Positions 7,509 through 25,451 of a stretch of 42,169 nt of DNA are shown in pieces (position 1 is the stretch's first letter; every line of letters begins with the position of its first letter). The stretch spans positions 1 through 42,169 of the forward strand of contig CANJNZ010000040.1 in NCBI GenBank assembly GCA_947476045.1. Reading direction: 5' to 3'. Both the position numbers and the translations under genes were made by a program. A model generated the notes under the pieces. That model was given only the letters and a program-made list of their open reading frames with translations. It searched no databases and was not told the origin of the DNA. Source of the stretch: Chthoniobacteraceae bacterium. Lineage in GTDB: Bacteria; Verrucomicrobiota; Verrucomicrobiia; Chthoniobacterales; Chthoniobacteraceae.

Positions 7509-8926
7509 CACGGCTTGCGGCAGACGGCGACGGTGGAGAGGCCGGTGCCGGGCATGATTTTATCCCACAGACGGAAGACTGGCGTGAGGAGGTTGTAGAT
7601 ACGCATTTTTGCTGCGGTGATCTTGCGCTGCTTGCCGAGGGTATTGACGAGATACCACGCGACCTTGCCAGCTTTGTTGAAATAGAACTGCGTCTCCACG
7701 TCGAAACCCGCCTCCTTCATTTTGGTTTCTAGTTCGCCTTTTTCGTAGCGGCGGAAGTGGCCCAGCTCTTTGTCGAAGTCGCTGTAAAGCTTCATGCCGA
7801 ATGGGACGAGGATGACGATGCGGCAACCGACGGGCACGTGGTCGTAAAGATTTTTCAACACCGCGCGGTCATCTTCGATGTGTTCGAGAACGTTGAGGAA
7901 AACGATACTGTCAGGCGCATACTTCGTGAGCACGGCGTAGTCGTCGCGCTGCGTCATATCGAGTTTGGCGAAGGAGAGGTTTTTTTTCTGCCCCCACTTG
8001 GCGCGCAGTGGATCAAGGTAATCGTCGCGGTAGTCGGTGAGCATTACCGTGTCGTGACGACGGAAAAAGTTGCTCATGTTACCGCGACCGCAGCCGAGTT
8101 CCGCGACGCGCTTGCCGAGGAATGGCTTCACGCGATCATACATCCATCGGTTAAATTTCGGCGCCTGCTCGATGGCGTCGAGCGTGACTTTTCCGGGGTC
8201 GCTGTATTTGGAGCTGAAGCGGTATTTGAAAATGAACCACAGCGCGGCGACGCCGTCCTTCCAGTTGATCTTTTTGCCTTCGTCGTAGCCGCGTCCGTTG
8301 TAGTTGATCGGCACCTCAAACATCCGGAAGCGGTTGCGCGCGACCTTTGCGGTGATCTCAGGCTCGATGCCAAAACGATTGGAAAACAGAGGCATGGATT
8401 TCAGCGCAGCGGCGGTAAACGCCTTGTAGCACGTCTCCATGTCGGTCCAGTTCGTGTCGTTCAGCATGTTGCTGAGGAAGGTGAGAAGTTTGTTCACCTG
8501 CGTGTGCCAGAAGAGCAGCACCTTCCGCTCAGCGCCTGCAAAGCGACTGCCGAAGACAACCTCGGCGCGGCCATCGAGAATCGGCGCGAGCATTTTCGGG
8601 TATTCGTTCGGATCGTATTCGAGATCGGCGTCTTGAAAAATCGCGAGGTCGCCGGTCATCTCCGAGATGGCGCGGCGGATGGCTGCGCCTTTGCCCATGT
8701 TTTTTGGCTGGGAGAAAATGCGGATCGTATCTGCGTGCTCTGCTGCGAGCGCCTGCATCACTTCCCATGTCGAATCCTTGCTGCCGTCGTTGACGATGAC
8801 GATTTCTCGCCTCAGCCCGCCCGGCAAAGGCGCGGCGAGCACGGCGGCGATACAATGGCGCAGACTTTCCTCCTCATTGTAGGCAGCCATGAGGATGGAG
8901 AGCTTTGTGAAGGTGGGTGCAGGCAT
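7508..8926 (-). CDS. fused GT2 glycosyltransferase and SAM methyltransferase
   Basis: Two domains sit in 472 residues. Residues 8-240 form a GT2/dolichol-phosphate-mannose-synthase-like transferase with VNDGSKDST (45-53) and the metal-binding QDADLEYDP (98-106), which would load a sugar onto polyprenyl phosphate. Residues 265-400 form a class I methyltransferase with the SAM loop AELGCGRG (275-282), an acidic LTDYRDDYLD segment and VFLNVLEHIEDD. The C-terminus resembles GT-associated methyltransferases. The product may feed the neighbouring PMT/ArnT-like enzyme, which uses polyprenyl-phosphate sugars. It lies 46 nt after that gene and overlaps the GT4 by one base. The methyl acceptor is unknown. 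Confidence 0.88.
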   Translation of the reverse strand: MPAPTFTKLSILMAAYNEEESLRHCIAAVLAAPLPGGLRREIVIVNDGSKDSTWEVMQALAAEHADTIRIFSQPKNMGKGAAIRRAISEMTGDLAIFQDADLEYDPNEYPKMLAPILDGRAEVVFGSRFAGAERKVLLFWHTQVNKLLTFLSNMLNDTNWTDMETCYKAFTAAALKSMPLFSNRFGIEPEITAKVARNRFRMFEVPINYNGRGYDEGKKINWKDGVAALWFIFKYRFSSKYSDPGKVTLDAIEQAPKFNRWMYDRVKPFLGKRVAELGCGRGNMSNFFRRHDTVMLTDYRDDYLDPLRAKWGQKKNLSFAKLDMTQRDDYAVLTKYAPDSIVFLNVLEHIEDDRAVLKNLYDHVPVGCRIVILVPFGMKLYSDFDKELGHFRRYEKGELETKMKEAGFDVETQFYFNKAGKVAWYLVNTLGKQRKITAAKMRIYNLLTPVFRLWDKIMPGTGLSTVAVCRKP

Positions 8927-8972: not shown

Positions 8973-10604
8973 TCACTGCCTGCCGACGATGTGGTATAGG
9001 CGCAGCGACTTTGCCTGCTGTTCGTTCTCGCGGATGATCGGGGTTTCGGCGACCGCCACGAATGTGCCGGTGTGATCTTCAATCACACGACGGAGTTGAT
9101 CGTGATAACCAGCGCGTTTTTCCTCGGGAACTGCGTCGTCGAGGACGACATATTCGATTTTTCCACCCGTCAAAAAAGCGAGAAGCTGTTCGTCGTCGCT
9201 ATATTTTTCGTGGAGATTTTTGCCATCCCAAGTGCGTCCTTTAGGATCTACCAAGGCTTTGCTGGCGCGCTCAACGGAGAGGTTTGGACGATGATCGCGC
9301 ATGGCAATTTCGGAAATAAACATCCCTTCCCCCCGTGCATCGGACGAGACCAGGATGCGTGCACCAGACGGCGCGGTTTTCAGCAACTCCGAAGCGATGG
9401 GGCGGAAGCCTGAATAGCCTTTTTGTTCACGATGCATGAACGCAAATGGCAACGTAAGTAGAAGTAGGAGAACGACCCACAAATACTCGCGGCGCTGTTG
9501 TTCTTGCCCATCACTGCGAAGCTTGCGGTTTCGCGCGAACGCGAAAAGGCCAGCGATTGAGAGCAAGACCAAGGCTGCGGTAGCGGGGAGAATGTGCCTC
9601 GCCTCGTATCCCACAGGAATCAAACTTTGGAATGTGAGAATCCCCAGAACAAGCGAGCTGATGGCCGCCCATTTCCCATTGCTGCGAGCGCGCACAAGGA
9701 GGCCGATGAGTGCGAAGACAGCGACAGCAATCCCGATAGCGATGCTCATTTTCTGCAAGTAGTAGGGCACGGCCTGCGAGGTGAATGACCACGAAATCCC
9801 GCCGCTATTGTCCTCCCAACCGCCAACGCGTGTGCCTTCCTTGCGGAAAATCCACGTCCACGGACCGGCGAGCACCGCAACGATCACCACCGCGATCCAA
9901 AGTGGATGCTTGGTGAATACTTTCCAGCGACGCACGAGCAGCAGTGAAAATGCGCACATGAGCACGAGGGCGAGGCCGCTGCCTTTCGTCATGATCGCAG
10001 CAGATGCAAGGAGCGCAAAAAACACGGCGTCGCGTTTGCGTCCGTCATCGAGGAAACGACCCCAAAACAATGTGGCACCTAGCATGGTGAGCGTGCCGAG
10101 CGTCTCGGCCATGATCATGCTGTAGTATTCACGCGCCAGCGGGCCGCAGAGCCATAGCAGTGCAGCGGCAGCGGCGGGCAGGATGCCGAATTCGCGCCGC
10201 AGCGCTCCGTAGATGAGCGTGGCTACGCCAGCGGCAAGAGATGCCATGAGCAAGAGCACGCTCATGCGCGACACGCCGAATGGCAGCGTCCACACACTCT
10301 GCACGAGGTAGAAAGACGGTGGCCAGACGCCGAGGGCGACCTTCGGATAATGCTCATAAAAACCACCGGGAGCTGATGGACCAAACGCTTTCAGCGGAAC
10401 GATAGAACGCTGCGCTACGCAGGAAGGCACCGTCTTGATCGCGTCACGCACGAAAAGGCCCGTGACGTAGTGCGCGGCTTCGTCGGGATGCGCGCCAAAT
10501 TCGCTGTCATAGGCGCCGCCAAACTTTTGCAGGAGAAATGCAATATCGAAGGCAATGGCGAAAATAATCGCCCATCGGGCAAAAATGCGGAGTTTTGTAT
10601 TCAT
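8973..10604 (-). CDS. polytopic membrane glycosyltransferase (ArnT/PMT-like, GT39/GT83 superfamily)
   Basis: This 543-residue protein has about ten hydrophobic segments and then a soluble periplasmic C-terminal part (about 400-543). The first outer loop carries AHPDEAAHY with Asp41-Glu42, the acidic pair typical of GT-C enzymes that use polyprenyl-phosphate sugars. It would transfer a sugar to a lipid, glycan or protein on the periplasmic side. Its start overlaps the EEP gene's stop by 4 nt (ATGA at 10601-10604), so it is co-translated. The upstream-to-downstream order with the DPM-synthase-like fusion fits donor synthesis and use in one pathway. The acceptor cannot be told. Confidence 0.82.
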   Translation of the reverse strand: MNTKLRIFARWAIIFAIAFDIAFLLQKFGGAYDSEFGAHPDEAAHYVTGLFVRDAIKTVPSCVAQRSIVPLKAFGPSAPGGFYEHYPKVALGVWPPSFYLVQSVWTLPFGVSRMSVLLLMASLAAGVATLIYGALRREFGILPAAAAALLWLCGPLAREYYSMIMAETLGTLTMLGATLFWGRFLDDGRKRDAVFFALLASAAIMTKGSGLALVLMCAFSLLLVRRWKVFTKHPLWIAVVIVAVLAGPWTWIFRKEGTRVGGWEDNSGGISWSFTSQAVPYYLQKMSIAIGIAVAVFALIGLLVRARSNGKWAAISSLVLGILTFQSLIPVGYEARHILPATAALVLLSIAGLFAFARNRKLRSDGQEQQRREYLWVVLLLLLTLPFAFMHREQKGYSGFRPIASELLKTAPSGARILVSSDARGEGMFISEIAMRDHRPNLSVERASKALVDPKGRTWDGKNLHEKYSDDEQLLAFLTGGKIEYVVLDDAVPEEKRAGYHDQLRRVIEDHTGTFVAVAETPIIRENEQQAKSLRLYHIVGRQ

Positions 10605-11659
10605 TGCGCAGGGTTAAAGCGAGCCAGCACGGCGCGGTGTTGGGAATGCATATCGTTTCCTACACGGCAGTCCACTGCGGTCCAGCCTTTGCCTGCAAAC
10701 CAATAATCAAGCCGGAGCCAGTGCCCGAGGAGTGCGGTGATGCGGCCATCCCGCGCACCGGGGAAGGTCAGACCCCATCCATGCCCTTCACTAGCGAAAG
10801 CATCCGTAAGCTTGCGTGCGAAGGTGTGATAAACCATGCCGTGGTCCGGCATATTAAAGTCACCGCCGACGATGAATGGAAGCGGCTCCTTTTCAAATAC
10901 GCCCACAAGCGAACGTGCAAGAGTAACACGCGCATCCAACCAATCTCGATAGCTGGAAAAACCATCCGTAGGAGCCTTGGAGAGCCACAGCATTTCGAGA
11001 GCGACGCGCGGACTGAAAACATGCTTCAGTGAACTGCGTGGAGTCGGGAGGTGGACATTGTATATGGCCAAGGAACGCCCGCCGACTTTGATCACAAAAC
11101 GCGCAGCAATCGGCTTTCCGCGCCATAGGGCTCCGATGACTGGTTCCGCGCTCTCGATTTCATGGGGAGTGAGCAGGATGAATTGTGCAACGCCCCTGTT
11201 GCGATAGGACGGATAGCGACGACGATATTCCGTTTCACGAAAGTCTGCATGAGCAACATCTTGAAGAAGGACAGCGTCTGGTTTTTCAGCGGGAAACGAA
11301 TCCACAAAAGCGGCTCGATTCCCCTGCCCCACGTTATGGGTGATCACAGTCAACTCCGCATTTGAGCCGGGGCTGTGAAGGCGGTATGTTGTAAAAAACA
11401 ACAGCACCGCCGCTAAACATGCGAGATGCACACCGCAAAGCGACCAACAGCGCGTCCAAAGTGCAAGCGGCGCAAGAACAGCGAGCGGTAGTGCGAAAAG
11501 GATCGGTGGAGCAAAGATGAGGAGACCTAGTGGCAGCCATGCTTCAGCCCACCACTCCAGCGCGACGAGCAAACAGAACAGAAAAATAGCGTAGCCGACC
11601 GTAAGTTTACGCAGGAGGCGGTGAGCACGGGCGGCGCCGATTGGAGCGCTCTCAGTCAT
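10601..11659 (-). CDS. membrane-anchored endonuclease/exonuclease/phosphatase (EEP) fold protein
   Basis: The N-terminus (about 20-92) holds two or three membrane segments, followed by an EEP-fold domain (about 102-352) with THNVG (108-111), YNVHLP, GGDFNMP and LDYWF. Two catalytic positions differ from the family norm: the usual Glu is Asp134 in LLQDV, and the final S-D-H motif reads SQH. EEP members include nucleases, sphingomyelinases and inositol phosphatases, so a phosphodiesterase or pyrophosphatase on a lipid carrier is conceivable, but weak or altered activity is also possible. The gene overlaps the ligase-TPR gene by 8 nt and the GT39-like gene by 4 nt, tying it firmly to glycan assembly. 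Confidence 0.8.
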   Translation of the reverse strand: MTESAPIGAARAHRLLRKLTVGYAIFLFCLLVALEWWAEAWLPLGLLIFAPPILFALPLAVLAPLALWTRCWSLCGVHLACLAAVLLFFTTYRLHSPGSNAELTVITHNVGQGNRAAFVDSFPAEKPDAVLLQDVAHADFRETEYRRRYPSYRNRGVAQFILLTPHEIESAEPVIGALWRGKPIAARFVIKVGGRSLAIYNVHLPTPRSSLKHVFSPRVALEMLWLSKAPTDGFSSYRDWLDARVTLARSLVGVFEKEPLPFIVGGDFNMPDHGMVYHTFARKLTDAFASEGHGWGLTFPGARDGRITALLGHWLRLDYWFAGKGWTAVDCRVGNDMHSQHRAVLARFNPAQ

Positions 11660-13766
11660 TCGCCTTCACGCCAAACTGCTCATCTTCAGGAGTCACAGAC
11701 TCAAAATCCATATTCTCGAGTGGATCTCCATACGCCTCGACGAACTTGGCATCTCCAGACAAAGCGCGAATGCGCTGAACGTCATTCAATCCTTCTCTGG
11801 CAAGATTACAGTCACCATCCAGCGACAGTGCCTTCAGATAATAAGCCTCGGCTCGATTAATTTTCCTCTGTAGCCAAAGGTGAAAGCCAAAACTCGCGTA
11901 GGTATTACCGAGGTTCGGATCAAAGCGCATCGCATTCATCAAAACCTCCGCCGCTTTGTCGTAGAGACCGAGGTTGTCGTAGGCACGCCCGAGTTTTAAC
12001 TGCAATCGGGCATCGTGTGGATACAACGCAAGTCCCTGTGCATAAGCCTCGGTCGCTGCAGCGTGACCTGCCCGAAACTTCGCAGGGGTTTCTTCACGCA
12101 TAGCCAGAAAATGGCGCGCCTCACCCAGATAATAATAAAGGTCCGGGTTTTTGGTTTCCTTTTGAATGCCGCGTTCAGCAAAAGAAAGGGCGTCCGTAAG
12201 CAGACGCTGCCTTTGTTCATCCGCAGCCAATTGTGATTCACCACCGGACGCCGGCAGCGGCTGGCCAATACCGGTTCCAGACGCACTTAATGCAACCGCT
12301 GCATTCGTGTTCGATATTACATCCACGAAAATCAAATTCCGGAGGTGAATGCGCGCCCATTCGGCACAATACTCGCCACGTAGCAGTGGAAATGCGAGCA
12401 AACCAAGTGCAAGACCGACCACAGGTAGTGCAAACCTCGCCAAGCGCATCTGGACTGTTGGTGCAGAAGGCGTAGTTTCCGAATCCGTGGATGGGCTCGC
12501 TAGTATCCCAAATAAAAACGCAAAAAGAAGAGTATTGGCCGGGATGTGAAAATTGAAATCTATGACCGAATGAATCACCAGTGCGGCCAGAGCGGTGAGA
12601 ACCCCGGCGACCAGTGCCAGTTCATTACTTGTAGTGCATCCGGCGGGCTGCATCCGGCGGTTCACGATACTGACCAACGAACGCCAGCCAGACTGGATAT
12701 GCAGGAGCAAAAATATCGCGAACAAGCCAGCGCCGACAAAGCCGTATTCACAAAGCAGTTCCAGATAGTCGTTGTGAACGTGCATGGGATCATTTTGCAC
12801 ACGCGCATCTCGGAAATGACGTCCGTAGTAAAGGTAGGTGCCACTCCCGGTTCCAAAAGCAGGGTTCAGTGCGTATTGCTTCAGTGCTGCCTGCCACATC
12901 AAGGGGCGCATATTCCCCGTATCGACCACCTGACCCATGCGATTTTCCAGGACAGTGCTTTGCGACATACCCCAAATCGCCCCCCCTATCAGAGCGACAG
13001 CCAGCAAAGATGCAGTCAGAGTAGTGATGGCAAAGAGCGCCGGGCGCAGCTTTTTCACCGCCCACAAAAGCAACACAAGAAGAACCCCTACCCCGCCAAT
13101 AGTGCTTATATAGCCTCCCCGGCTCCCTGTGAGGGCGATGCCGACAACACAACTCAGCGCAACATACCCCAGAATGACACGATGCCGCACTTTAAAATCA
13201 CCAAGGCAACAAGCCGCAATCGCAATCAAACCGAGAGATTCCAGCAAGCCGGCGAGGTGATTCGGGCATATGTAAAAGCCACTCGCCCGCCAGCCATAAT
13301 CGGGCCGAAAAAACTTCGGCAGCGGTGCTCCTTCCGGAAGCATGGATAACAGCATGAAGTTGTCATCCCTTGTAAACTGCAGGATACCGCACACTGCATG
13401 GATGAGTGCAAGGGCGAACAAGACATAGAGAATGACCAGGCGCTGCCGTGAACGTGTGAGATAAAATGCGGTCAGCAGATAGACCGCTAACGCAGCCAAA
13501 ACCATGAAGAAATCAGCCCGGGCAAGATAATCCACTGGCGATAGACGGCTGCGGATCAGAACGTAAATGGCAAGAGCGAGAGTGAATGACACCGGCCAAA
13601 GTCGCGCGCTTGAGTTCTGTTTACGCGTGGATATCGCAATTGGAATCAACGCCGCCACTGCAATGGCGAGATAAGCCGGGATTCCAAAAAATAATGTGAC
13701 TCCACCAATCAGAATTTGTGAGGCGCATAGCCCAAGAACAAGGAGAATGGAAATCAGGAAATACAC
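11652..13766 (-). CDS. O-antigen ligase/polymerase-like membrane protein with C-terminal TPRs (copy A)
   Basis: The first 450 or so residues are polytopic, with the Wzy_C-type region GTGSGTYLYYG followed by HVHNDYLELLCEYG, as in O-antigen ligases, Wzy polymerases and PglL-type protein O-oligosaccharyltransferases. Residues about 540-665 form TPR-like helices (NPDLYYYLGEARHF, ARLQLKLGRAYDNLGLYDKA). The start codon is GTG at 13764-13766. It is paralogous to the plus-strand gene at 17438-19318 along its whole length. It follows the Ala-rich protein gene after a terminator-like hairpin and overlaps the EEP gene by 8 nt. Whether it polymerises, ligates to lipid A core, or glycosylates protein cannot be decided from sequence. 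Confidence 0.88.
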   Translation of the reverse strand: MYFLISILLVLGLCASQILIGGVTLFFGIPAYLAIAVAALIPIAISTRKQNSSARLWPVSFTLALAIYVLIRSRLSPVDYLARADFFMVLAALAVYLLTAFYLTRSRQRLVILYVLFALALIHAVCGILQFTRDDNFMLLSMLPEGAPLPKFFRPDYGWRASGFYICPNHLAGLLESLGLIAIAACCLGDFKVRHRVILGYVALSCVVGIALTGSRGGYISTIGGVGVLLVLLLWAVKKLRPALFAITTLTASLLAVALIGGAIWGMSQSTVLENRMGQVVDTGNMRPLMWQAALKQYALNPAFGTGSGTYLYYGRHFRDARVQNDPMHVHNDYLELLCEYGFVGAGLFAIFLLLHIQSGWRSLVSIVNRRMQPAGCTTSNELALVAGVLTALAALVIHSVIDFNFHIPANTLLFAFLFGILASPSTDSETTPSAPTVQMRLARFALPVVGLALGLLAFPLLRGEYCAEWARIHLRNLIFVDVISNTNAAVALSASGTGIGQPLPASGGESQLAADEQRQRLLTDALSFAERGIQKETKNPDLYYYLGEARHFLAMREETPAKFRAGHAAATEAYAQGLALYPHDARLQLKLGRAYDNLGLYDKAAEVLMNAMRFDPNLGNTYASFGFHLWLQRKINRAEAYYLKALSLDGDCNLAREGLNDVQRIRALSGDAKFVEAYGDPLENMDFESVTPEDEQFGVKAND

Positions 13767-13948
13767 AGGTGAGGAGATGAGCGGGATATTCTACCATGTT
13801 TTAGCTGCTGCCTATATTGCTGCAAGACATGAACTGGAAATTTTGACTTCCACTGAATTCCGATGCCTTCAGCAGGGTCACAATTATTGTAACAAGCAGG
13901 GCTTGTATCCTCTCAGAAAACCTGACGATGTTCATTTAAAACAAAGAA

Positions 13949-13976
13949 CCCCTGCGACCAATAGAGGTCGCAGGGG
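13949..13976 (-). terminator. hairpin terminator after Ala-rich protein A
   Basis: A perfect 11-bp stem (cccctgcgacc with ggtcgcagggg) has a 6-nt loop. Read leftward it is followed by a T-rich run (ttctttgttttaaat). It lies about 23 nt past the leftward stop codon and probably terminates or attenuates transcription before the ligase-TPR gene. The remaining 180 nt to that gene's start hold no other gene. Confidence 0.85.
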
Positions 13977-13998
13977 CCTGTGTTGGATTGAATCAGAT

Positions 13999-16900
13999 TT
14001 AGAATAGGTTAAGCGCAGTAACTGGAGAATTCAAGCCACTGTGATGAGTGTAGTTGCGAAGTCCAGCTGCACCTGCGCCCATGGTTCCAGCGCGGAACTG
14101 GGCAGCGCCAGTCATCGCTGCATTGATGAGCTGTGTTTCGCTGAAGGCCAATGAAGCCGATGTAAGCGCAGTTACAGTCGCATTGGTCAACGTTCCGACT
14201 CCCAAGAGAGCCCGAGCGATACTTGCGAAATCCGCGAAGAGTGCGGTAGGAGTTCCGGAAACCACACCAGCAGTGGAATTAGCCACTGCTTCTGCCGCAG
14301 CTCCCGCTGCTTGTGCAAAGGCAAGTGCGTGACTCTTCATGGCTTTTGCAGCCGCATTAAGAACCGCTGCCGCAAGAGGATTGAGAGACACTGCACCTTC
14401 GGTTTGCAACTGGGCAACTGAACCAGTGACAACAGCAGCCGTTCCTTTGGAGCGTTTGTTGGTTACGTCTGCAACAGTGGAACCAGCACCAGTTGCTTCA
14501 GGGAAGTTTGCAACTGCTCCTTGTAACCCATTTTTGTCATCAACCGGCTTCAATGGATTGGTGACATTGTTATAGTTGGTAAACAGAAGAGATGCCTTCA
14601 CCATGCCTGTTACAGCGCCAGCCATTAAGCTTTGCTCTTTCTTCTGTGCAGCCAACAGGGCAGTTCCACTAAGGTTAATCGTCAGTTTGGCGTCTTTAAG
14701 GCCAAGGACTGCCCCCGATGAGATGGCTGCAACAGCAGCTGGGTCATCGGCCGGATTATCACGCATATGAGCAAACTGTATTGCTGCACCAGCGGTCTTT
14801 TGCACTGTAGTAGGTGAGCGGAATGCTGCTGCCCTAGCTACATAGTGTGCGTATTCAGGACGTGCAGCGACTGCAGCCTGCGTAATTTCTACTGAAGCTG
14901 TTGTATTTGTGGCGATCTTGTGGTCAACAACATCAAATAGATTTTCCGGATGTGCTATGACATCTTGTGCCGTTTCGTAGCCAAGACGAATGACCGATTC
15001 CTTTGTTTTGTTCAAGGAAATCGCATAATTGAGCATATCGGCACCTGTAACTCCGCTACCAAGCCTGAGCGCGGCAGCCAGCACTGGAATTGTGAGTGTG
15101 TTATTTGCCGCACCAATACCGAAGAGCACAGCGCGAGGATTTGCAGCCCCTGAAACGGTTGTTCCGGGGATTTCATTTCCGGGCTTAGTGGGCGACATAT
15201 CTGTGTCGATGCCAGCAAGAGTGCCATGAAGTGCAGCAACAGCATCGTCAAACTGAGTTTCAGTAGATGCTTTAGCGCGAATAGCCAACTCGGTCGCAAG
15301 CGTTACACTATTGCTCAATCCAGCGCCACCTTTTGTAAGTGCCGCAGCAATTGCTGCAGCCTTGTTGTTGGACAGTGGTGATGGCAACACATCCTTGGGA
15401 TTATTGGCAATCACAAATGCTGCAACAGCCTCTTCCCATCCGCTTGGAACAGTCGCGATTGCTGTTTCAACTAATTGGTTGTCAATATCTTTGCGAGCCA
15501 CAGCTGCAGCTTCCGCGATATCAGGCAATGCCCTCTCATAGCCAGCCGTGTCGGCTGCAGTAATGGCGGCCGCCAATACCGCCTGCGCATCACTGACACT
15601 CAACGCTGGCCTTGGGCTGCCGCCGTTTTTGATAGCCGCAGTGAGAGCCAGTCCGCTTTGCAACTCTGTAGCAGCAGGAATTGCAGCAGCAACCGCAAGG
15701 TCTGGAGCTAAACCATTCACGGCCTTAATGGCACTGGATACAATCGAGGAAATTGACGCGAAATTGCCAGCGATTGCACCTTGGATGATGCTTTGTTTTT
15801 TAGCATCATCAAGGGCACTCAATAAATTGCCTTTATCGATAGCTGCCGTAACAAAGTTTGCAGCCTTTGCAGCCTTGAACTGAACGGCGCCACTCATTGC
15901 GGCATAGATATGATCAAAATCAGTTGCTATCAGTTCGCTCGTAAATTTAACCACCAAATCCCCATTGATGAGTTGCTCTTGGCGTAATGCGATATTGATT
16001 CTGGCACCCACGGCTACGGCATCATGAAGGGCTCCAGTCGCACCGATTGTAGCAGTATCAGCCAGCAAGGCATCACGCACATCAGTGCCAAAATTACCAG
16101 CTCCCTGATTAGGAAGGATATCCGCACCCTGTATCGCACCCATTGCGAAGTTTACAACGTTTTTTTCTGTTTTTGCAACCAAATGTGTATTGAACGCCGC
16201 AAGCATTGCCTTTGTAATATCGGTCTTGGTGACGTTCCCTGGAGGAAAACCTTGAACGCCAGAGACACCGCCGCGAGCCACATCATCAATGTAGAGTGCT
16301 GCGTTGCTATCTGTAGCCAACACATCCGCAAGGAAGGCATCCATCAATTTTGCTGCGACAGCTTTTGCAGCGACCGCCTGCGCGCTCGTCGGGCTCTCCG
16401 AGCCTGTGGCTGTTAGAGGAAGGGCTTTTTTCGTAGATGCCACTGCGGTTTTGGCAACATTGAAAATCACAGCACGCGTGGATGCATTCACAGCGGCAGC
16501 TGCGGCGTCAGCCATCTTGCCATTATTTGCCCCCACGAGATCGCTAGCGATAATGCCTAAAATCGCCCCGGCAGCGGCATCGGCAGCCTCGTCGGGAAGC
16601 ACTAATGAAGCAGCACCTACAGCTTGAGGGGCTACGCTTGGATTTAACTTTGCCACCTCAGTGAGTATCAGCTTCAGTTGCGAAGGCATGAACTGAACAC
16701 CAGCCGCAACGATACCAGCCGCATTGCCCGGAGCCGCTTGAACAGCTTGAGCAACCGCAACTGCGAACTTTGCTCCTGCGGGCGCGATGTAATAAGGCTT
16801 ACCCAATCCATCGAGACCGAGGGGCTCTGGCGAAAGAACCGTATCGCGGTTGCTGGAGGTTGCGAGAGCACCGGTTCCGTCAACGAGTGCATCTAGTTTT

Positions 16901-17139
16901 GCCTGAATGGCAGAAAGGTAATTATTGTAGTTGTCCAAGTTTACCGATACCGAACTTGTAATCCCGCCGTGATTCAATCCAGTGCCGGTTGGATCTGTAA
17001 TTGTATTGGTGTCAATCGGACTATTCGCAGGTGCAATATAGCGATTCGGCGACTGTGCGTATGCGCCTACGATGCTTAGGCCTGCGAAAGCTGCAACTGC
17101 TACGAACTTAGTGATGCGATGGTTACTGAGTGGTTTCAT
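13999..17139 (-). CDS. very Ala-rich exported helical repeat protein (A), function unknown
   Basis: I do not recognise a named family. This 1046-residue protein starts with a clean signal peptide (MKPLSNHRITKFVAVAAFAG, then AYA at 26-28). The mature chain is dominated by Ala, Val, Ile, Ser and Thr, with one Trp and no cysteine seen. Around 125-200 it forms helix-like units with prolines at exactly 137, 152, 167 and 182, a 15-residue period. Later, degenerate units recur with short words such as GAVQF, GAIQG, AAIQF and GAAQF. This suggests a long alpha-solenoid or fibre outside the inner membrane. No anchor or PEP-CTERM tail is visible. It is upstream of ligase-TPR copy A and divergent from copy B. 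It could be a surface, sheath or matrix protein, perhaps a glycosylation substrate. Confidence 0.8.
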   Translation of the reverse strand: MKPLSNHRITKFVAVAAFAGLSIVGAYAQSPNRYIAPANSPIDTNTITDPTGTGLNHGGITSSVSVNLDNYNNYLSAIQAKLDALVDGTGALATSSNRDTVLSPEPLGLDGLGKPYYIAPAGAKFAVAVAQAVQAAPGNAAGIVAAGVQFMPSQLKLILTEVAKLNPSVAPQAVGAASLVLPDEAADAAAGAILGIIASDLVGANNGKMADAAAAAVNASTRAVIFNVAKTAVASTKKALPLTATGSESPTSAQAVAAKAVAAKLMDAFLADVLATDSNAALYIDDVARGGVSGVQGFPPGNVTKTDITKAMLAAFNTHLVAKTEKNVVNFAMGAIQGADILPNQGAGNFGTDVRDALLADTATIGATGALHDAVAVGARINIALRQEQLINGDLVVKFTSELIATDFDHIYAAMSGAVQFKAAKAANFVTAAIDKGNLLSALDDAKKQSIIQGAIAGNFASISSIVSSAIKAVNGLAPDLAVAAAIPAATELQSGLALTAAIKNGGSPRPALSVSDAQAVLAAAITAADTAGYERALPDIAEAAAVARKDIDNQLVETAIATVPSGWEEAVAAFVIANNPKDVLPSPLSNNKAAAIAAALTKGGAGLSNSVTLATELAIRAKASTETQFDDAVAALHGTLAGIDTDMSPTKPGNEIPGTTVSGAANPRAVLFGIGAANNTLTIPVLAAALRLGSGVTGADMLNYAISLNKTKESVIRLGYETAQDVIAHPENLFDVVDHKIATNTTASVEITQAAVAARPEYAHYVARAAAFRSPTTVQKTAGAAIQFAHMRDNPADDPAAVAAISSGAVLGLKDAKLTINLSGTALLAAQKKEQSLMAGAVTGMVKASLLFTNYNNVTNPLKPVDDKNGLQGAVANFPEATGAGSTVADVTNKRSKGTAAVVTGSVAQLQTEGAVSLNPLAAAVLNAAAKAMKSHALAFAQAAGAAAEAVANSTAGVVSGTPTALFADFASIARALLGVGTLTNATVTALTSASLAFSETQLINAAMTGAAQFRAGTMGAGAAGLRNYTHHSGLNSPVTALNLF

Positions 17140-17224
17140 GGATGTTTTAGGGTGATGTTTGATTGAGGAGTTGTGAGGTAGATTGATTTTTATTCTGGGG
17201 CCTGCGGATGGAAGACTTTGGAGA

Positions 17225-17270
17225 CTTTTATCAAAAAGCGCATCATGTCAATTTTTTTTTGAATTTTTTT
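17225..17270 (-). promoter_or_regulatory. candidate sigma-70 promoter for Ala-rich protein A
   Basis: Reading leftward, a perfect -35 TTGACA (17251-17246) is followed after 15 nt by TAAAAG (17230-17225), or slightly earlier by GATAAA. Upstream are two A-tracts (17252-17260 and 17264-17270) that look like an UP element. It lies about 90 nt before the ATG at 17139. The -10 is weak and spacing is not ideal, so this is a candidate only. The whole 17140-17437 gap is the divergent control region of the two arms; I see no clear promoter for the rightward gene. Confidence 0.42.
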
Positions 17271-17437
17271 ACAAGAAGGTTGGAAGCAAAGCAGTTTTAT
17301 TGCCTTATTACTTGCCAAAAAGAGTTGGCTGTCAGCTTTTGAGTATCCACCTGCGCCGGATGTAGGGGAGTTAAAATTTCCGGGACACTACTTCTGTGGT
17401 TGTATGTAGGTGGTTTTGTCATATTCATGCCTTTCTT

Positions 17438-19318
17438 GTGAATTCCTTTCTCGCCGCACTCTTCGCGTCTGCTTTCGTTTTTATTCAGTGCTATATCAGC
17501 GGGACGCGGCTGGCTTTCAGTCTTCCTGCCTACGGGATACTCGCGCTGGCAGGCGTGCTTTCGTTTTGGGGGCGCTCGGAACGAGTGAAGCGTGCGGGTG
17601 TCTGCCTCGCGGCGACGGCGGTTCTTTTTACCTACGTGCTTGTGCGCGCCGGGACATCGCCGGTGGAATATCTGGCGCGCAGGGATATGCTGATGGTTCT
17701 TGCTTGTCTGATCGTTTATTTCCTGACCGTGCGCCATTTCGCGGCGGGGCATTTACGGGCAGCGATTTTGTTTGTGATGTTTGCGCTGGTAGTGGCGGAG
17801 GTGATCATCGGCGCGCAGCAATTTGCCTACGGAAATGAATGGATGCCTTTCGGACTGATTCGCCCACCCAGCCGTGAGCGGGCGAGCGGGATGTTTATCA
17901 GCTCGATCCATTTGGCGGGACTCCTGGAGGCGCTTGGGCCTTTTGCTCTGGCGCTGGCGCTGTGGGGCACGAAAAAGACACTCGTGCGGATCCTGGCGGG
18001 TTACATTGCCTTGATGTGTTACTTCGGCGTGGGAATCACTGGGAGTCGAGGCGGTTGGTTGAGCGCGACTTTTTCGCTCGGAGTTTTCACTTTGTTTGGT
18101 CTTGACGTTATCCGACGGACAAACCGCGCACTTTTTCCCAGCGCCGTATATATCACGCTCCTCACTACTCCGCTGCTGATGACGGGCGCTTTCCTGCTCG
18201 GTGCGCAAAGCAAGATGATCCTTGAGCGCATGGAACTGCTGGGAAAAATCACCGAGTCGCGCAAGGAGGGGGTTTACGATGTTCGTGTCTTTAATTGGCA
18301 GGCGGCGCTCGACCAATGGCGCGTTTCAAAATGGACCGGCACGGGCTCCGGCACCCATCTTTATTTTGGGCGGCTATATCGGCGCCCGCAATTGCAGGTG
18401 GATCCGGAGCACGCGCACGGCGACTACCTCGAAATGCTTGCAGAGTATGGGATCATCGGCGCAGCGGGGATGGCCTTCTTCTTGTTTGCGCATGTGCGGC
18501 GTGGCTTTCGGAGTTACAAAGATCTCGTGACACAGCATGCGGAGGAGCCGCACCGCTCATCCATCGAACTTGCGCTGCAAGTGGGCGCACTTTCAGCGGT
18601 GAGTTCCTACCTCGCTCACTCCGTGGTGGACTTCAATCTCCACCTGCCTGGAAATGCACTGCTGTTCGGTTTTATTTTCGGCATCCTGGCAAATCCCGGC
18701 TACTTGACCGGAGTGCAGGATGATTCCACCACGAGGCAACGCGTCCATTTTTTTTCACGGCTCATATTGCCTTCGCTTGGCCTTTGGCTGGCGGTGGTCG
18801 GAATGCCAAAATTGCGCGGAGAGATTTACTGCGAAAGAACACGCGTAGCGGTGCGCGAGGGGCTCTACGATGAGGCCGTCGAACTCGCCCGCCTTGGGCT
18901 GCAGTCGGAAAAGAAAAATCCTTTTCTCTATTACCATCTCGGCCAGGCGCATCGCCTGCATGCGATGAAAGCGCCTCGTAGTGTTCGTAGAGCGCAGCTC
19001 GAACTGGCGGAGAAAGCCTTCCGCGCAGGACTGGAGCACTTTCCTCAAGATGAAGATTTATGGATTCGCCTCGGGCAGACACTGGATGCGCTCGGCGACT
19101 ACAAAAATGCGCGCACCGCCTACGAAACGGCCCTCCATTTAGATCCGAATTTAGGCCTGCTCTATGCATACTATGCAAAGCATCTCAAGGCAGTCGGGCG
19201 CGACGACGAAGCCGAAGAAGCCCTTGCAAAGGGTCAGCGACTGTCAAATCTAAATCTCGCCACTTTGCTCAACGGCCCGCTGCAAGCGCCAGACGCACCC
19301 GAAGAACAACCAAAATGA
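17438..19318 (+). CDS. O-antigen ligase/polymerase-like membrane protein with C-terminal TPRs (copy B)
   Basis: This is a full-length paralogue of the leftward ligase-TPR gene. Ten or more membrane segments include GTGSGTHLYFG and HAHGDYLEMLAEYG (Wzy_C region), then TPR-like helices at about 480-600 (NPFLYYHLGQAHRL, DEDLWIRLGQTLDALGDYKNA). The frame is open from 17396, but I prefer the GTG at 17438 because it places the N-terminus in exact register with copy A: the conserved Pro before Ala-Tyr is residue 30 in both. It is followed after 88 nt by a second Ala-rich exported protein. Roles considered are glycan polymerase, lipid-core ligase or protein O-oligosaccharyltransferase. Confidence 0.87.
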   Translation: MNSFLAALFASAFVFIQCYISGTRLAFSLPAYGILALAGVLSFWGRSERVKRAGVCLAATAVLFTYVLVRAGTSPVEYLARRDMLMVLACLIVYFLTVRHFAAGHLRAAILFVMFALVVAEVIIGAQQFAYGNEWMPFGLIRPPSRERASGMFISSIHLAGLLEALGPFALALALWGTKKTLVRILAGYIALMCYFGVGITGSRGGWLSATFSLGVFTLFGLDVIRRTNRALFPSAVYITLLTTPLLMTGAFLLGAQSKMILERMELLGKITESRKEGVYDVRVFNWQAALDQWRVSKWTGTGSGTHLYFGRLYRRPQLQVDPEHAHGDYLEMLAEYGIIGAAGMAFFLFAHVRRGFRSYKDLVTQHAEEPHRSSIELALQVGALSAVSSYLAHSVVDFNLHLPGNALLFGFIFGILANPGYLTGVQDDSTTRQRVHFFSRLILPSLGLWLAVVGMPKLRGEIYCERTRVAVREGLYDEAVELARLGLQSEKKNPFLYYHLGQAHRLHAMKAPRSVRRAQLELAEKAFRAGLEHFPQDEDLWIRLGQTLDALGDYKNARTAYETALHLDPNLGLLYAYYAKHLKAVGRDDEAEEALAKGQRLSNLNLATLLNGPLQAPDAPEEQPK

Positions 19319-19406
19319 TTTTAAAAAACGGATTGCGTTCTGCCAAAGATTCGGCAATTTCAAGAAACAGAATACCCCAACTCCAGCAATTCTACTTTAA
19401 AAAGCC

Positions 19407-21725
19407 ATGACGACCACACGAAAAACCACCCGTTCACTTTGCGTCTCACGCATGCTGCCAGCCATCGCAGCTATCACCCTCGCCCTCACAGGCGCAGATG
19501 CGCTTGCATCGGTAGCTGGTCGCGCTGCCATCAACGCCAAGTTGACCCCGGCCAATATTCCGACCCTCAAATTAAATGGCGACGCAGCGACAGCCGAGCA
19601 GGCTGATCTCCTGCTAGCACTCGCACTCGCACTGCAAGACCCGGCAAATTCAGGCCTCACTGCGGCCGAGATTGCCGAAGGAGCACTCGAGCCCGGAGCA
19701 ACAGGAAAGACACGCGCCGACAAAGACAAACTCTCAGGCCAGCTCATCGCCACAGCGGTTGCCTCTCGCAACCTCGCCAGTAACGCAGCGCAACTGGCAG
19801 CTGTGACCGCAGCCGTTTTCAACGTCAACGGAGCAAACTTAAATACAAAGCTCCGACTCACAGACGCGGGAAAAGCCATCGCTTTTGCTGCTGCGATCAA
19901 ATCCACCGGAACCGCCAGCGCAGGCAACGACATAGGAAAGGCCGTCGCAACAGTCTACAGCGGCGATTTAGCCACCCTTCTCACCAACACTACAAAAGCG
20001 CTTGGAACCAGCAGCGCCGCAGCCTCGGGAGCGCTTCAAAACGCTGTGGATGGGCTTTTTGATCAAGGAGCAGTCGTTGCAGGAAACCGTCAGGCCTTCA
20101 CCAGGCTGGTGGCGGAAAAAATCGCCGCAACCAATCCTTCTGCTGCAGGCTCCCTGTATGGCGGGCTCGTGCTGAATAACCCCAACAGCCAATACACCGG
20201 CGATACGGGCCTGCAAACCCTAGCTCAAGACTTTCTCAGCGATGCCAAACTCGCAAAGGCATACGGCGAAATTCTCGCCAACACGATGGGTGCCCATACC
20301 AGCAAGGCAACCCTTGCGGCTGCACTCGTAGCCGGGCAAAAACTCCCAACACAATCCCTCATCGTGCAAGGAATACTCCGCGCAGGCACAACATCTGATG
20401 TCAGTGGAGTCATTAATGCAGTCATTGGCGGCGTTACCGACCGTGCCGGTTTTTCGGGAATCGTTTCCTTCGGCAACGGGAACGACGCAACCAAGCTTGA
20501 TGCGATCGTTAAAAAAATCGCCGACAATCAGGATGTCACCTCCAAGACCAAGATTGGCGCTGCGGTAATCGGCGCAGTAGGCACGGTAACGCCAAGTGCG
20601 GCAAATGCTGCGACAAAAGCAATTTTTGACAGCGCCGGAGCAACATTTGCAGACGATATAAGCCGCACCAAATTCGGAACGGACAACGTTGCCAAAATCA
20701 AGAGCTTCTCGGCCGCTGGTTACATGGCCTCAGCCATCGCCGAGCGAAACATCGCAGACAGTGCAAACAAAGCCAACGACGCAGCTGATATCGCCGTGGC
20801 GATCATGACAAAAGGTTCCAAAGCAGCCACCGATATCGCCCAGCAAATTTCCGCGCTCGCCACCATCACGGACCGTCCTGGATTTGCCGAATTGATTTCA
20901 GACAAGAATAAAAAATTCGTTCAAAATGCAGCCGTAGGCGTATCGATTACCGACCCGACAAACTCCGAGACCATCACCCTGCGTGCCATCACTCACGATG
21001 CTACTCTCGTTGGAACCAAACTCGTAGGCGACCTTGCGGCGCTTGCAAAGACCGCAGTCATCGCTGGGGCTGTAGCCTCCGCAGTGGATGAGGAAAAAGC
21101 TGCGGACATCGGCTCCAAACTCGCGGAAGCGATGAGCGTCAACGGAACGAAAACCGCAGGAAAACCAATCAAGCTTTCCGGTGCCACGGCACTAGCAACC
21201 TCTCTCGCAAAAGCCATTCAAGCTAAGCCCGGAGTGAAGACTACCAACCGCATGGATGAACTTGGAGAGGTTGCAGCCTCCATTGTTTCTTTTGTTCTAG
21301 GCAAAAATGGCAACGACACCAAAGGACTCGCGGCTGAGGCCAAACTAATCAGCGCAGTTGGAAGCGCCATTTTGAAAACGCTGTCCACTACGCCGGTCAA
21401 CGAAACTCAGGCACTCGCAGACCGAAGCGAAGCACGCGATATCGCAGGAAGTATTGCGCAGACCATTTTTGCAGCCAGCACTTCGGTGGTGCCAGCCACG
21501 CAAAAAAACACACTACTGGGCGTAGTGAGCGGCATGACGCACACGCAGGGGCTGCTTGAAAAAGCATTTCTCAAACTTGCCGGCCCGAAGAGCACGACAC
21601 TCAAGCCGAACGCGGACTATGACAACGTAGTGAAGGCGTTTCAGGATGTGCTTTCAGGCGCCGGCGGCAGCAAGTTTGAAACCGGCTCGGTTTCCGACAA
21701 GGAAACTGATACGAAGAACGGATAA
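19407..21725 (+). CDS. Ala-rich exported helical repeat protein (B), function unknown
   Basis: No known family is recognised. The 772-residue protein begins with a basic stretch and hydrophobic signal segment (MLPAIAAITLALTGADALA, ending near residue 34). The rest is Ala/Thr/Ser/Ile/Val/Lys-rich, predicted helical, with many units of the form xxIAxAVxxxxP and no cysteine seen after the signal. Similarity to Ala-rich protein A is in composition, export and architecture rather than obvious residue identity. The C-terminus is hydrophilic (GSVSDKETDTKNG) with no anchor. It sits directly after ligase-TPR copy B and is closed by a terminator at 21751, so the two form a transcription unit. It may be a structural matrix protein or a glycosylation target; this is inference. 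Confidence 0.78.
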   Translation: MTTTRKTTRSLCVSRMLPAIAAITLALTGADALASVAGRAAINAKLTPANIPTLKLNGDAATAEQADLLLALALALQDPANSGLTAAEIAEGALEPGATGKTRADKDKLSGQLIATAVASRNLASNAAQLAAVTAAVFNVNGANLNTKLRLTDAGKAIAFAAAIKSTGTASAGNDIGKAVATVYSGDLATLLTNTTKALGTSSAAASGALQNAVDGLFDQGAVVAGNRQAFTRLVAEKIAATNPSAAGSLYGGLVLNNPNSQYTGDTGLQTLAQDFLSDAKLAKAYGEILANTMGAHTSKATLAAALVAGQKLPTQSLIVQGILRAGTTSDVSGVINAVIGGVTDRAGFSGIVSFGNGNDATKLDAIVKKIADNQDVTSKTKIGAAVIGAVGTVTPSAANAATKAIFDSAGATFADDISRTKFGTDNVAKIKSFSAAGYMASAIAERNIADSANKANDAADIAVAIMTKGSKAATDIAQQISALATITDRPGFAELISDKNKKFVQNAAVGVSITDPTNSETITLRAITHDATLVGTKLVGDLAALAKTAVIAGAVASAVDEEKAADIGSKLAEAMSVNGTKTAGKPIKLSGATALATSLAKAIQAKPGVKTTNRMDELGEVAASIVSFVLGKNGNDTKGLAAEAKLISAVGSAILKTLSTTPVNETQALADRSEARDIAGSIAQTIFAASTSVVPATQKNTLLGVVSGMTHTQGLLEKAFLKLAGPKSTTLKPNADYDNVVKAFQDVLSGAGGSKFETGSVSDKETDTKNG

Positions 21726-22243: not shown

Positions 22244-23902
22244 GTGATTACCCGCCTATCCACCTTTGCAATCGCGTGCCTATACGGCCTTGGCGTAAGC
22301 GCTGCCGAACAAGCCAGTGAGATTCCAGTCAATGATGGAACTCCCCCTGCTCCGACAGACAACCTCGAAAGGATCCCCGGTGATGCGTATAACCAGTCTC
22401 CTGCGATCGGAATCCCCTATCACAGCCTTTTTCGGGAAACCAGCGTTCCAAATTTAAACACCATTCGTGACGTAAGCCTTACGCCTTCGTTCACACCTGC
22501 GGAATCCGTAAGCGCCGGAGCACGAGTTGATTTACCGGACTTCCGTGGGCGCTTTCCCCTATTGCAAAGAGGTTTTGCGCCAGAAAGTGCCGATTTAAAA
22601 ATTGGCCGACTGTATTTCAAGCTCCGCCATATTTCGGCTGCTGTTCTTGCAAGCGACAATATCAACCGCTCTGCAACGAATCGAGAATCAGGGGCGCTCA
22701 GCATTATAAGCATCGGCGGTCAAGTCATGGCGCAGATCACTGACAGATTTTCTATTGCCGCTTCAGGCTCCTACGTTTATTTTCCATTTGAGGGGCGAGG
22801 GGGATTTTCCGGATCCTTGGGGCGCTATAATTCTTCCTTTGGCATTTCAAACGCAAGAACACTACAAACTCAAATCGCTTGGGAGCCTACTATTTTTGGA
22901 CTGCCATTTGTAATTGCAGACGAATTTAGAGTTGGACTGTTCCGTTTTTCCAACACGCTAAATGACAGTTTCGAATACGGAGATGACGGAGGTTTTGACG
23001 CCACAACACATGAAGGTGCCTACACGCTGGGAGGCAGGAGGTTCAATGGAAACAAGAACTTCAATAATAATTACAATGAAATAAGCGGGGAGCATATTTA
23101 CTACAGTAATTTAGCAAGTATTTCGACGAGCGGCACATTGCCGGGGGAGCATATTTTCAACTTTAGGGCATCCCATGAAAACCTGTGGTATCAAGATGAC
23201 TTCTCTGGCCAATACAATCTCCCGTCCCAGCGAGATCGCGCATCCCTTCACATACAATCCGTGCGTGAAAGCCTCCGATTCAAGCCGTATTTGCACTATG
23301 ACTTCAATCGTAGAAACAACCCCGAGATAACATACAACACATTTCGAGTTGGCATGAAGGGACCGATTACGGATTTGATCACAACGCGAGGCGAAGCCGG
23401 CTATTCAGTGAGCAATGATCGCAGTCACATCCTCTGGCGTCTCGGGCTATACCATACGGCCAGCCCCTACATGCATCATGCGCTGGAATACAATCGGGGT
23501 ATTTCCGACTTCAATGATGAAATTTCCGAAAATGTGATTTACCGAATCTACAAAACACTTGGTCCAGACCTTTCTGGTTCTGCTTCTATAAGCTACCATC
23601 GTGTCGAAGATCTATATGGCGCTTCTTCAAGCCGGAAAGAATGGCGAACCGGATCGCTACTTTCCTATCATGTGAGTCCGCGCACACAGCTGAGCCTGCG
23701 CACATACTATGCAAATATTGATTACGATGACGGCTCAGGATCCGCAACATCGTGGCTGACTCGATTCAATTGCGAACATCGCTTTCTTGAGCGACTGCAC
23801 GCGCGGTTCATTTATCAACATGAGCACCGCAATGCGGATCGTCGCTCAAATTCCTACGATGAAAATCTTGCATATCTCAGCTTGTCCTGGCTTTTCGAAT
23901 AA
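22244..23902 (+). CDS. putative outer-membrane beta-barrel protein of the polysaccharide locus
   Basis: Starting at GTG 22244, the protein has a signal peptide (about 1-20, MITRLSTFAIACLYGLGVSA). From about residue 115 it has alternating aromatic/polar strands rich in Tyr, Phe, Arg and Asn, ending in LAYLSLSWLFE, the look of a beta-barrel. An N-terminal stretch of about 90 residues rich in Pro/Ser is probably periplasmic. Its position immediately before the Wza-like and Wzc-like genes suggests an outer-membrane role in glycan export or secretion, similar to the outer-membrane proteins reported in PEP-CTERM-type EPS loci. I cannot name a family with confidence. Confidence 0.72.
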   Translation: MITRLSTFAIACLYGLGVSAAEQASEIPVNDGTPPAPTDNLERIPGDAYNQSPAIGIPYHSLFRETSVPNLNTIRDVSLTPSFTPAESVSAGARVDLPDFRGRFPLLQRGFAPESADLKIGRLYFKLRHISAAVLASDNINRSATNRESGALSIISIGGQVMAQITDRFSIAASGSYVYFPFEGRGGFSGSLGRYNSSFGISNARTLQTQIAWEPTIFGLPFVIADEFRVGLFRFSNTLNDSFEYGDDGGFDATTHEGAYTLGGRRFNGNKNFNNNYNEISGEHIYYSNLASISTSGTLPGEHIFNFRASHENLWYQDDFSGQYNLPSQRDRASLHIQSVRESLRFKPYLHYDFNRRNNPEITYNTFRVGMKGPITDLITTRGEAGYSVSNDRSHILWRLGLYHTASPYMHHALEYNRGISDFNDEISENVIYRIYKTLGPDLSGSASISYHRVEDLYGASSSRKEWRTGSLLSYHVSPRTQLSLRTYYANIDYDDGSGSATSWLTRFNCEHRFLERLHARFIYQHEHRNADRRSNSYDENLAYLSLSWLFE

Positions 23903-23920
23903 AATAAATCGATTCAACTG

Positions 23921-23950
23921 TTGACCTGAAAATCCAGAGCATTACTCTTA
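23921..23950 (+). promoter_or_regulatory. possible promoter upstream of the Wza-like gene
   Basis: A TTGACC hexamer at 23921-23926 is followed 16 nt later by TACTCT, in an AT-rich gap of about 100 nt. The -10 matches only 3 of 6 consensus positions, so this is weak. Confidence 0.25.
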
Positions 23951-24006
23951 AATGCTAAATTTCTTATCCCTGAGTGTAAAAACCCTAAGTCCTGACCACA
24001 ACCTCA

Positions 24007-25311
24007 ATGCTCCAAATTACTAAAAGAACATTATTACGATTCGCCTTACTCGGATTTTTATCCACAACGATACTGTCGTCGTTTGCCCAGGAAAAAAATA
24101 CCGCCGAAGGATATTCTCTGCCTTCTACTAACGGGGGCACTGCGGCCGTTGAAACAGGAAAATCAGTGAATTTCCGCCCGTCGGCAGCGACATTAAATAA
24201 TGGGGAATCTGCTATTCAAGGGGATATCTCAAGTGCAACAAAGCGTGCAAACGTGATGGAGGAATTGGTGGATAGGCGTGATTCACTTGAGGGCGAAATC
24301 AAATACGGAAAAGGTAAGATAGATGCTGCACAAAAGCGCACTCAAATACTGAAATCCCTCGGCAAAACTGAGGAAGCAGAGCGTATGAGTAACGAGGCGA
24401 AAGACTGGCAGGCCCGCATCAACAACAGCCGCGAACAGCTTGCGCAGGTTGAAGAGGAAATCGCAAAGGTCAAAAAGCCCAACCACGAAGAAACAATTCA
24501 TGAAATCCAGAGCGGTGAGGAAGTCATTCTTCCTGGAAATAATCTGGAAATCTGGGTCAATGAAGATACCTCCTTCAATGGTCGTTACCAAGTGCGCCGC
24601 GGCGGCTACATCATCGTGCCGCAAATTGGGCGAGTGATTGTTGCTGGAAAAACAATTTCCCAAGCAGAGAGCGCTATCCGCAAAGCACTGCAAGCCACGC
24701 AGCTCAAACAGGCCAGCGTGACTCTGGAACGCTTTGAAGGGGTATCTGATGAGCCCGGTCCTTTGATTTACCTCTCCGGAGAATTTAAACACCCACGACC
24801 TTATCGCGTGCCTGCCGGCACATCCCCGACAATCGTTTCTGTTCTACTTAGTTGCGGTGGATGGACGGACCGCGCAGACCTGACACACGTCAAAGTCATG
24901 CGCATGGCCGCAAACAGGAGTGTTGTAGAAGAGGTAAATATTAAAAAGATTCTGGAAGGCAACCCGAGCGCTGGAGGTCTCGGCGGCGATCTCACGCTTA
25001 CTGAAGGCGATGTTCTCGTCATACCCAGCGGTGCAATGAACCTCGTTTACGTAACAGGCCGCGTTAGAAAAGCAGGAAGCTACAAGCTCAACGAAGGCGA
25101 AAAACTGACTGCTTACGGCGCAATACTCCAAAGCGGCGGCTTTAATCATTTTGCAGACAAGGACGGCGTCCACATCCTGCGAAGTATGCCCGATGGAACC
25201 AAAGCCAAACTGCCGGCCAGCATCAAAGATATAGAGAAAGGTCGCCGTCCGGACATTGTTCTTCAGGCCAACGACATCGTCGTCGTGCCAGAAAAATGGT
25301 TTAGTTGGTAG
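24007..25311 (+). CDS. polysaccharide export protein, Wza-like with SLBB domains
   Basis: Outer-membrane polysaccharide export proteins form the channel that works with a Wzc-type kinase. This 434-residue protein has a signal peptide (1-27, ending SFAQ), a charged coiled-coil-like segment (about 80-155), a polysaccharide-export domain (about 175-242, with VPQIGRVIVAGKTISQAESAIRKAL split around 204-228), a first SLBB domain (about 253-340) and a second (about 347-428, YVTGRVRKAGSYKL). Unlike E. coli Wza there is no lipobox cysteine, and the coiled-coil insert before the export domain is unusual. It is followed by the Wzc-like gene after 140 nt. Confidence 0.9.
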   Translation: MLQITKRTLLRFALLGFLSTTILSSFAQEKNTAEGYSLPSTNGGTAAVETGKSVNFRPSAATLNNGESAIQGDISSATKRANVMEELVDRRDSLEGEIKYGKGKIDAAQKRTQILKSLGKTEEAERMSNEAKDWQARINNSREQLAQVEEEIAKVKKPNHEETIHEIQSGEEVILPGNNLEIWVNEDTSFNGRYQVRRGGYIIVPQIGRVIVAGKTISQAESAIRKALQATQLKQASVTLERFEGVSDEPGPLIYLSGEFKHPRPYRVPAGTSPTIVSVLLSCGGWTDRADLTHVKVMRMAANRSVVEEVNIKKILEGNPSAGGLGGDLTLTEGDVLVIPSGAMNLVYVTGRVRKAGSYKLNEGEKLTAYGAILQSGGFNHFADKDGVHILRSMPDGTKAKLPASIKDIEKGRRPDIVLQANDIVVVPEKWFSW

Positions 25312-25345
25312 CACGTAAATTTTTCAACTCGAAAATGACGTGACG

Positions 25346-25369
25346 CAGTGCGTAAAAAAGTTCGCACTG
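25346..25369 (+). other. small hairpin in the export gene intergenic region
   Basis: A 7-bp stem (cagtgcg with cgcactg) with a 10-nt A-rich loop is followed by tctttaagattttt. It lies between the Wza-like and Wzc-like genes and might be a weak terminator or attenuator that tunes the kinase level. Support is limited to the fold. Confidence 0.35.
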
Positions 25370-25451
25370 TCTTTAAGATTTTTATAGCGAAATTTAAAAA
25401 AGAGCCGACTCTTGTCTAACCTCTCAGCTACACGCACAAGCTACTGAAACC

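Follow-up and report, generated by a model that had tools for sequence, protein, structure and literature searches.

We describe, in a genome of the Chthoniobacteraceae, two membrane proteins, LigL and LigR, each of which joins an O-antigen ligase domain to tetratricopeptide repeats (TPR) and is encoded beside an exported protein. We lean towards a reading in which each ligase and its neighbour form a dedicated O-oligosaccharyltransferase/acceptor pair, with a glycan transferred onto a Thr or Ser at the sixth position from the C-terminus of the neighbour (position -6). At the sequence level, the pairing is conserved across the Chthoniobacterales, and the tails of the neighbours suggest that the ligase attaches a sugar chain at this residue.

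Organization of the locus

The window, the whole 42,169-nucleotide stretch of DNA that was analysed, is a single contig of a 4.37 Mb genome, with gene calls made within this analysis. LigL, A1, LigR, and A2 are all open at the coordinates that an earlier note on this DNA had assigned to them. These genes, their parts, and their flanks are as follows:

7508..8926, minus strand: GT2-methyltransferase fusion, possible polyprenyl-phosphate sugar synthase (synteny)
8973..10604, minus strand: PMT_2 (GT-C) glycosyltransferase, linked to LigL by synteny
10601..11659, minus strand: membrane Exo_endo_phos protein, downstream of LigL and linked to it in several relatives
11652..13766, minus strand: LigL, O-antigen-ligase (WaaL-fold family) membrane protein with C-terminal TPR, 704 aa, with matches to PF04932 and TPR families; LigL clade of the ligase tree
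11811..12062, minus strand: TPR region of LigL (aa 569-652), on the catalytic-loop side of the membrane by transmembrane (TM) parity
12720..13160, minus strand: Wzy_C domain of LigL
13999..17139, minus strand: A1, exported Ala-rich partner of LigL, 1046 aa, whose orthologues adjoin LigL orthologues
14002..14025, minus strand: C-terminal tag of A1, PVTALNLF, with the -6 Thr codon at 14017-14019
17140..17395, no strand: divergent intergenic region between A1 and LigR, its A1-proximal part best conserved against the sister species
17396..19318, plus strand: LigR, second WaaL-fold/TPR membrane protein, 640 aa
18008..18469, plus strand: Wzy_C domain of LigR
18809..19264, plus strand: TPR domain of LigR (aa 472-623)
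19407..21725, plus strand: A2, exported Ala-rich all-helical partner of LigR, 772 aa, whose orthologues adjoin LigR orthologues
21699..21722, plus strand: C-terminal tag of A2, KETDTKNG, with the -6 Thr codon at 21705-21707, in a tail predicted to be disordered
22244..27653, plus strand: polysaccharide export genes on the LigR side (TIGR03016-like outer-membrane protein, Wza-like protein, Wzc-like tyrosine kinase)

The two modules are divergent, A1 preceding LigL on the left and LigR preceding A2 on the right, which bears out the reversal of gene order described in the earlier note. Sugar-transfer genes flank the module on the left and a polysaccharide export cluster on the right. The GTG at 17438 is the probable start codon of LigR, and similarity to the sister species sets in at this point. 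A simple scan of the divergent region revealed no sigma-70-like promoter, and no RNA elements were found in the window at gathering score. Elsewhere in the window, the gene at 32527-33549 matches the STELLO glycosyltransferase family (PF03385, E 1.1e-10), which is named from plants, and a gene at 34850-35941 that has no Pfam match lies in a region of strong GC skew where GC reaches 64%.

LigL and LigR as ligase-TPR proteins

Both proteins belong to the O-antigen ligase/Wzy_C family PF04932 (E 4.9e-21 for LigL and 1.8e-15 for LigR), with bit scores of 75.5 and 57.5 that lie above the curated cut-off of 31.7. As both also match TPR families and are 36% identical over 652 columns, the claim of two full-length ligase-TPR paralogues is upheld. 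LigL and LigR fall in separate clades of the ligase tree and are therefore old paralogues. Neither has a match to PglL_A (PF15864) or Wzy_C_2 (PF11846) at E 0.1 or better.

The AlphaFold2 model of LigR (pLDDT 90.6) has the WaaL fold, aligning with WaaL (7tpg) at a Z score of 26.3 and an rmsd of 4.8 over 386 residues; this likeness was found by fold only, as a sequence-profile search against the PDB did not match WaaL. Structural matches to the C-terminal part of LigR were TPR domains, including that of O-GlcNAc transferase. Four TM helices are predicted after the catalytic loop, a count that comes from hydropathy only, with one or two weak helices judged by eye, and this would place the TPR on the same, periplasmic, side as that loop.

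The exported partners A1 and A2

The earlier note had placed a very Ala-rich exported protein next to each ligase, and both neighbours fit this description: they start with a signal-peptide-like sequence and contain 22% (A1) and 20% (A2) Ala, ranking second and sixth among the 922 proteins of at least 250 aa from the same genome (median 11%). Among 1516 genes in 2.03 Mb of that genome, no further protein was recovered with the Ala-rich criteria used here. Neither A1 nor A2 matches any Pfam or NCBIfam family. Homology between them was considered and rejected: BLASTP gave no match, and the profile-profile E value of 0.35 was at the level of the reversed control. As A1 is not a duplicate of A2, only the ligases are paralogous, and the description of the locus as a divergent duplicated module stands for the ligases and fails for their partners.

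The model of A2 shows an all-helical body (pLDDT 77.9), with the last 11 residues (762-772) predicted to be disordered. Its fold has no clear relative in the PDB; the best match reached Z 9.1, a value that helical repeats may owe only to a common arrangement. An intact A2-type gene with the tail GAETDKRNR was also observed on the opposite strand in species G083 (L040:3707-6690), beside a broken A2 paralogue that matches residues 212-587 only.

Conservation of the ligase/partner pairing

Homologues of A1 and A2 were first sampled in 147 genomes of the order. Within this sample they occur in the same family only, and every one adjoins a ligase-TPR gene or, in G083, lies one or two genes away from it. 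An A1-LigL pair is also present in the cultured Chthoniobacter flavus Ellin428 (NZ_ABVL01000005.1; L068), with PVTDIFNL as the tail of the A1 homologue. Two further species have the divergent four-gene block, one at L039/L058 and one, which belongs to another genus of the family, at L045/L063. Because the block recurs and A1 and A2 homologues always lie near a ligase-TPR gene in these genomes, the module reflects more than chance.

When the ligase alignment was used to search GTDB genomes, 78 loci were recovered, and 77 ligases were placed in a tree. Three clades in this tree have tagged partners, namely those of LigR, LigL, and a third type (type III), and the partner lies downstream of the ligase in the LigR clade and upstream in the LigL (A1) and type III clades. 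At third-type loci the partner is small, and outer-membrane and Wzc genes usually come next, while the LigR pair recurs amid unrelated gene contexts. Within the tagged clades, some ligases (L067, L072, L075, L079, L095, L262, and L269) are not flanked by a tagged partner, and a large sister group of ligases from other verrucomicrobial orders is without tagged partners. The earlier proposal that each ligase is dedicated to its neighbour is strongly supported by these data, in that ligase-TPR and partner genes co-occur and the side of the partner follows the ligase clade.

In the sister clade (L102-L133, Limisphaerales and relatives), many loci have, after the ligase-TPR gene, a gene for a different kind of exported protein of 265-300 aa, FecR-like by eye, and then one for a protein of roughly 750-800 aa; the tag is absent there.

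A C-terminal tag with Thr or Ser at -6

The partners fall into eight groups that cannot be aligned once the last 16 residues are removed. They range from 121 to 1370 aa and include Ala-rich solenoids, small Lys-rich proteins, Pro-rich proteins, and a CBM-like protein; their common features are an export signal and, at the C-terminus, a tag in which Thr or Ser stands exactly at -6. This position holds Thr or Ser in 35 of the 37 collected partners, compared to 11% in the background (1514 genes of the same genome), and none of the other last 15 positions approaches this enrichment. Asn is found at -2 in 24/37 partners (background 3%) and Pro at -8 in 18/37. The usual forms of the tag are P-(E/V)-T-x-x-x-N-(G/R) and P-V-T-x5. 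By type, the tails read P-V-T-x5 (A1), (P/K)-E-T-x3-N-(G/R) (A2), and (T/S)-P-x2-N-R (third type), each with variants; PVT is invariant in 7/7 A1 orthologues and ET in 8/8 A2 orthologues.

Counted by majority within groups, Thr or Ser occupies -6 in seven of the eight (p 1.6e-6), a relevant unit since kinship within groups means that nominal per-sequence probabilities are overstated. When neighbours were chosen by position only, Thr or Ser was present at -6 in 31/37 on the partner side, 0/19 on the opposite side, and 3/37 in the sister clade (Fisher p 2.7e-11). Gene calling had overlooked the small partner in L084, which was recovered on a second look; it is counted among the 37 collected partners and not among the 31 tagged neighbours chosen by position.

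As the -6 rule was formulated after inspection, the true hold-out consists only of five ligases first met afterwards. Three of these, in other families of the order, have a tagged exported neighbour: a divergent partner of 530 aa with 18% Ala, ending PVTDTIGL, and two partners ending QVTSTTNK and PTPTQNQ. All three are also included in the 37 collected partners. In two relatives, the tail is similar and misses the spacing (PPESPTY in L070 and PPTSAH in L082).

Ala-richness was rejected as the link between ligase and partner, given that the tag or a close variant of it also ends partners that are not rich in Ala, such as those in L074, L082, L084, L100, and L059. The earlier note had explained the pairing by a preference of PglL-type enzymes for Ala/Ser/Thr-rich segments; this explanation did not survive, because many partners are not Ala-rich, the constant feature is Thr or Ser at -6, and PF15864 and PF11846 are absent from the ligases. 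A role for the tag as a genome-wide signal was likewise unsupported: P-x-(T/S)-x5 ends 15 of 1516 genes in the 2.03 Mb searched (roughly half the genome), A1 among them. The one other exported near-match of note in that portion is weak, a 257-aa protein (C2:132232-133005) whose last residues, QQPTTTNHNK, place Thr at -6 and Asn at -2; as far as seen, it is not near a ligase of the LigL/LigR family.

Proposed mechanism and alternatives

In the mechanism that we propose, the partner would be exported and would fold, A2 into its all-helical Ala-rich body, leaving the short disordered C-terminal tail exposed. The periplasmic TPR of the ligase, on the side of the catalytic loop, would recruit this tail. 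The flanking polysaccharide genes would probably make a polyprenyl-diphosphate-linked glycan, which the WaaL-type site would move onto the hydroxyl of the Thr or Ser exactly six residues from the C-terminus, and the product would be an exported protein with a terminally attached glycan. Conservation or prediction supports the pairing, the presence of the tag at a fixed spacing, the fold of the ligase, and the membrane side on which its TPR lies. Recognition of the tag by the ligase, the acceptor role of the -6 residue, and the nature of the glycan are inferred. Interchange of Thr and Ser at -6 fits an acceptor hydroxyl; against this role, known C-terminal enzymes use the last residue of a pilin, not position -6 of a non-pilin.

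We regard it as rather unlikely that the tag is instead a non-covalent docking or sorting signal, with the TPR or an outer-membrane export protein binding the C-terminus and nothing attached to the protein. The same estimate covers a role for the exported protein as a periplasmic scaffold or chaperone for polysaccharide polymerisation or export, with the ligase as a Wzy-type polymerase. TPR domains are frequent binders of C-terminal peptides, and the conserved tail could serve as a docking signal without modification; type III and some LigR loci also adjoin outer-membrane, Wza, and Wzc genes. A fixed distance from the C-terminus suits peptide binding and catalysis alike, but a strict Thr or Ser at -6 that tolerates Thr/Ser interchange exceeds the needs of docking. 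Moreover, LigR pairs lie away from polysaccharide export genes in several genomes, and the export cluster in the window already contains a further Wzy_C protein of its own (29816-31276).

Processing of the sortase type, in which P-x-T would be cut after Thr, the last five residues lost, and the new C-terminus joined to glycan or lipid, appears improbable. Although P-x-T resembles the LPXT of sortase signals and Pro is common at -8, the motif is followed by neither a hydrophobic span nor a basic tail, and the exosortase gene of this genome (C15:56746-57486) is on another contig, apart from the ligase locus. The ligase is the only gene common to the neighbourhoods of all partner types, and peptide cleavage is not known for WaaL-fold enzymes. 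Least probable of all is that the ligases are ordinary lipid A-core O-antigen ligases whose neighbours are functionally unrelated and inherited the tag by chance: PF04932 and the WaaL fold cannot separate lipid from protein acceptors (PMC12645811), but the conserved pairing with its side set by clade, the tag in unalignable partners, and the empty opposite-side control all argue against it.

Comparison with known systems

The dedicated enzyme/acceptor reading has its closest parallels in TfpO/PilO and TfpM, which act on a C-terminal Ser or Thr, are encoded beside a single dedicated acceptor gene, and have a Wzy_C domain without PglL_A or Wzy_C_2 (PMC12645811). Here, too, the candidate acceptor gene is adjacent, on a side that depends on the ligase clade. 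Those enzymes modify the last residue of type IV pilins, whereas the acceptors here would be non-pilin exported proteins with Thr or Ser at -6, and the ligases carry a TPR domain. WsfB of Paenibacillus alvei, a predicted S-layer protein O-oligosaccharyltransferase, has Wzy_C followed by a C-terminal TPR (PMC2943079), as do LigL and LigR; unlike them, it comes from a Gram-positive organism, its S-layer protein is encoded apart and glycosylated on tyrosine, and no C-terminal tag has been described for it. WaaL resembles the membrane part in fold, but the ligases here have an extra TM helix and TPR and are paired with a tagged exported protein. General PglL O-oligosaccharyltransferases share PF04932 and are encoded beside an acceptor gene in many species (PMC3643930), but they differ from LigL and LigR in their additional PglL domains, and the pair here appears dedicated rather than general.

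PEP-CTERM/exosortase systems likewise use a short C-terminal signal on otherwise dissimilar exported proteins encoded near polysaccharide genes (PMC1569441). The motif differs here, there is no TM helix or basic cluster, and the locus has no exosortase; the partner tails end five residues after the Thr or Ser, which leaves no room for the TM span of PEP-CTERM. PEP-CTERM-like proteins were observed divergent from the ligase in L074, L082, and L100. The best reading, by analogy, is that the ligase/partner pairs would work like TfpO/TfpM and WsfB but lie outside all these families as defined, the differences being the type of acceptor, the -6 position, and the combination of Wzy_C-TPR with a C-terminal acceptor.

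A search of titles and abstracts found nothing evidently about verrucomicrobial protein glycosylation, and none of the papers searched joined O-antigen ligase and tetratricopeptide with Verrucomicrobia. From the Wzy_C domain by itself, a lipid ligase cannot be told apart from a protein-glycosylating enzyme; a fixed tail on the product of the neighbouring gene would supply such a criterion, together with a directly testable acceptor residue. More tentatively, with a confidence slightly short of even, we suggest that the Chthoniobacterales, a group of soil and freshwater bacteria, may possess a protein-anchored glycan system in which WaaL-fold ligases with a TPR domain would join polysaccharide to tagged exported proteins, and in which the tag is a portable conjugation signal, independent of the protein body. 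If real, a short tag that works at the ends of unrelated proteins would be a useful signal for conjugation.
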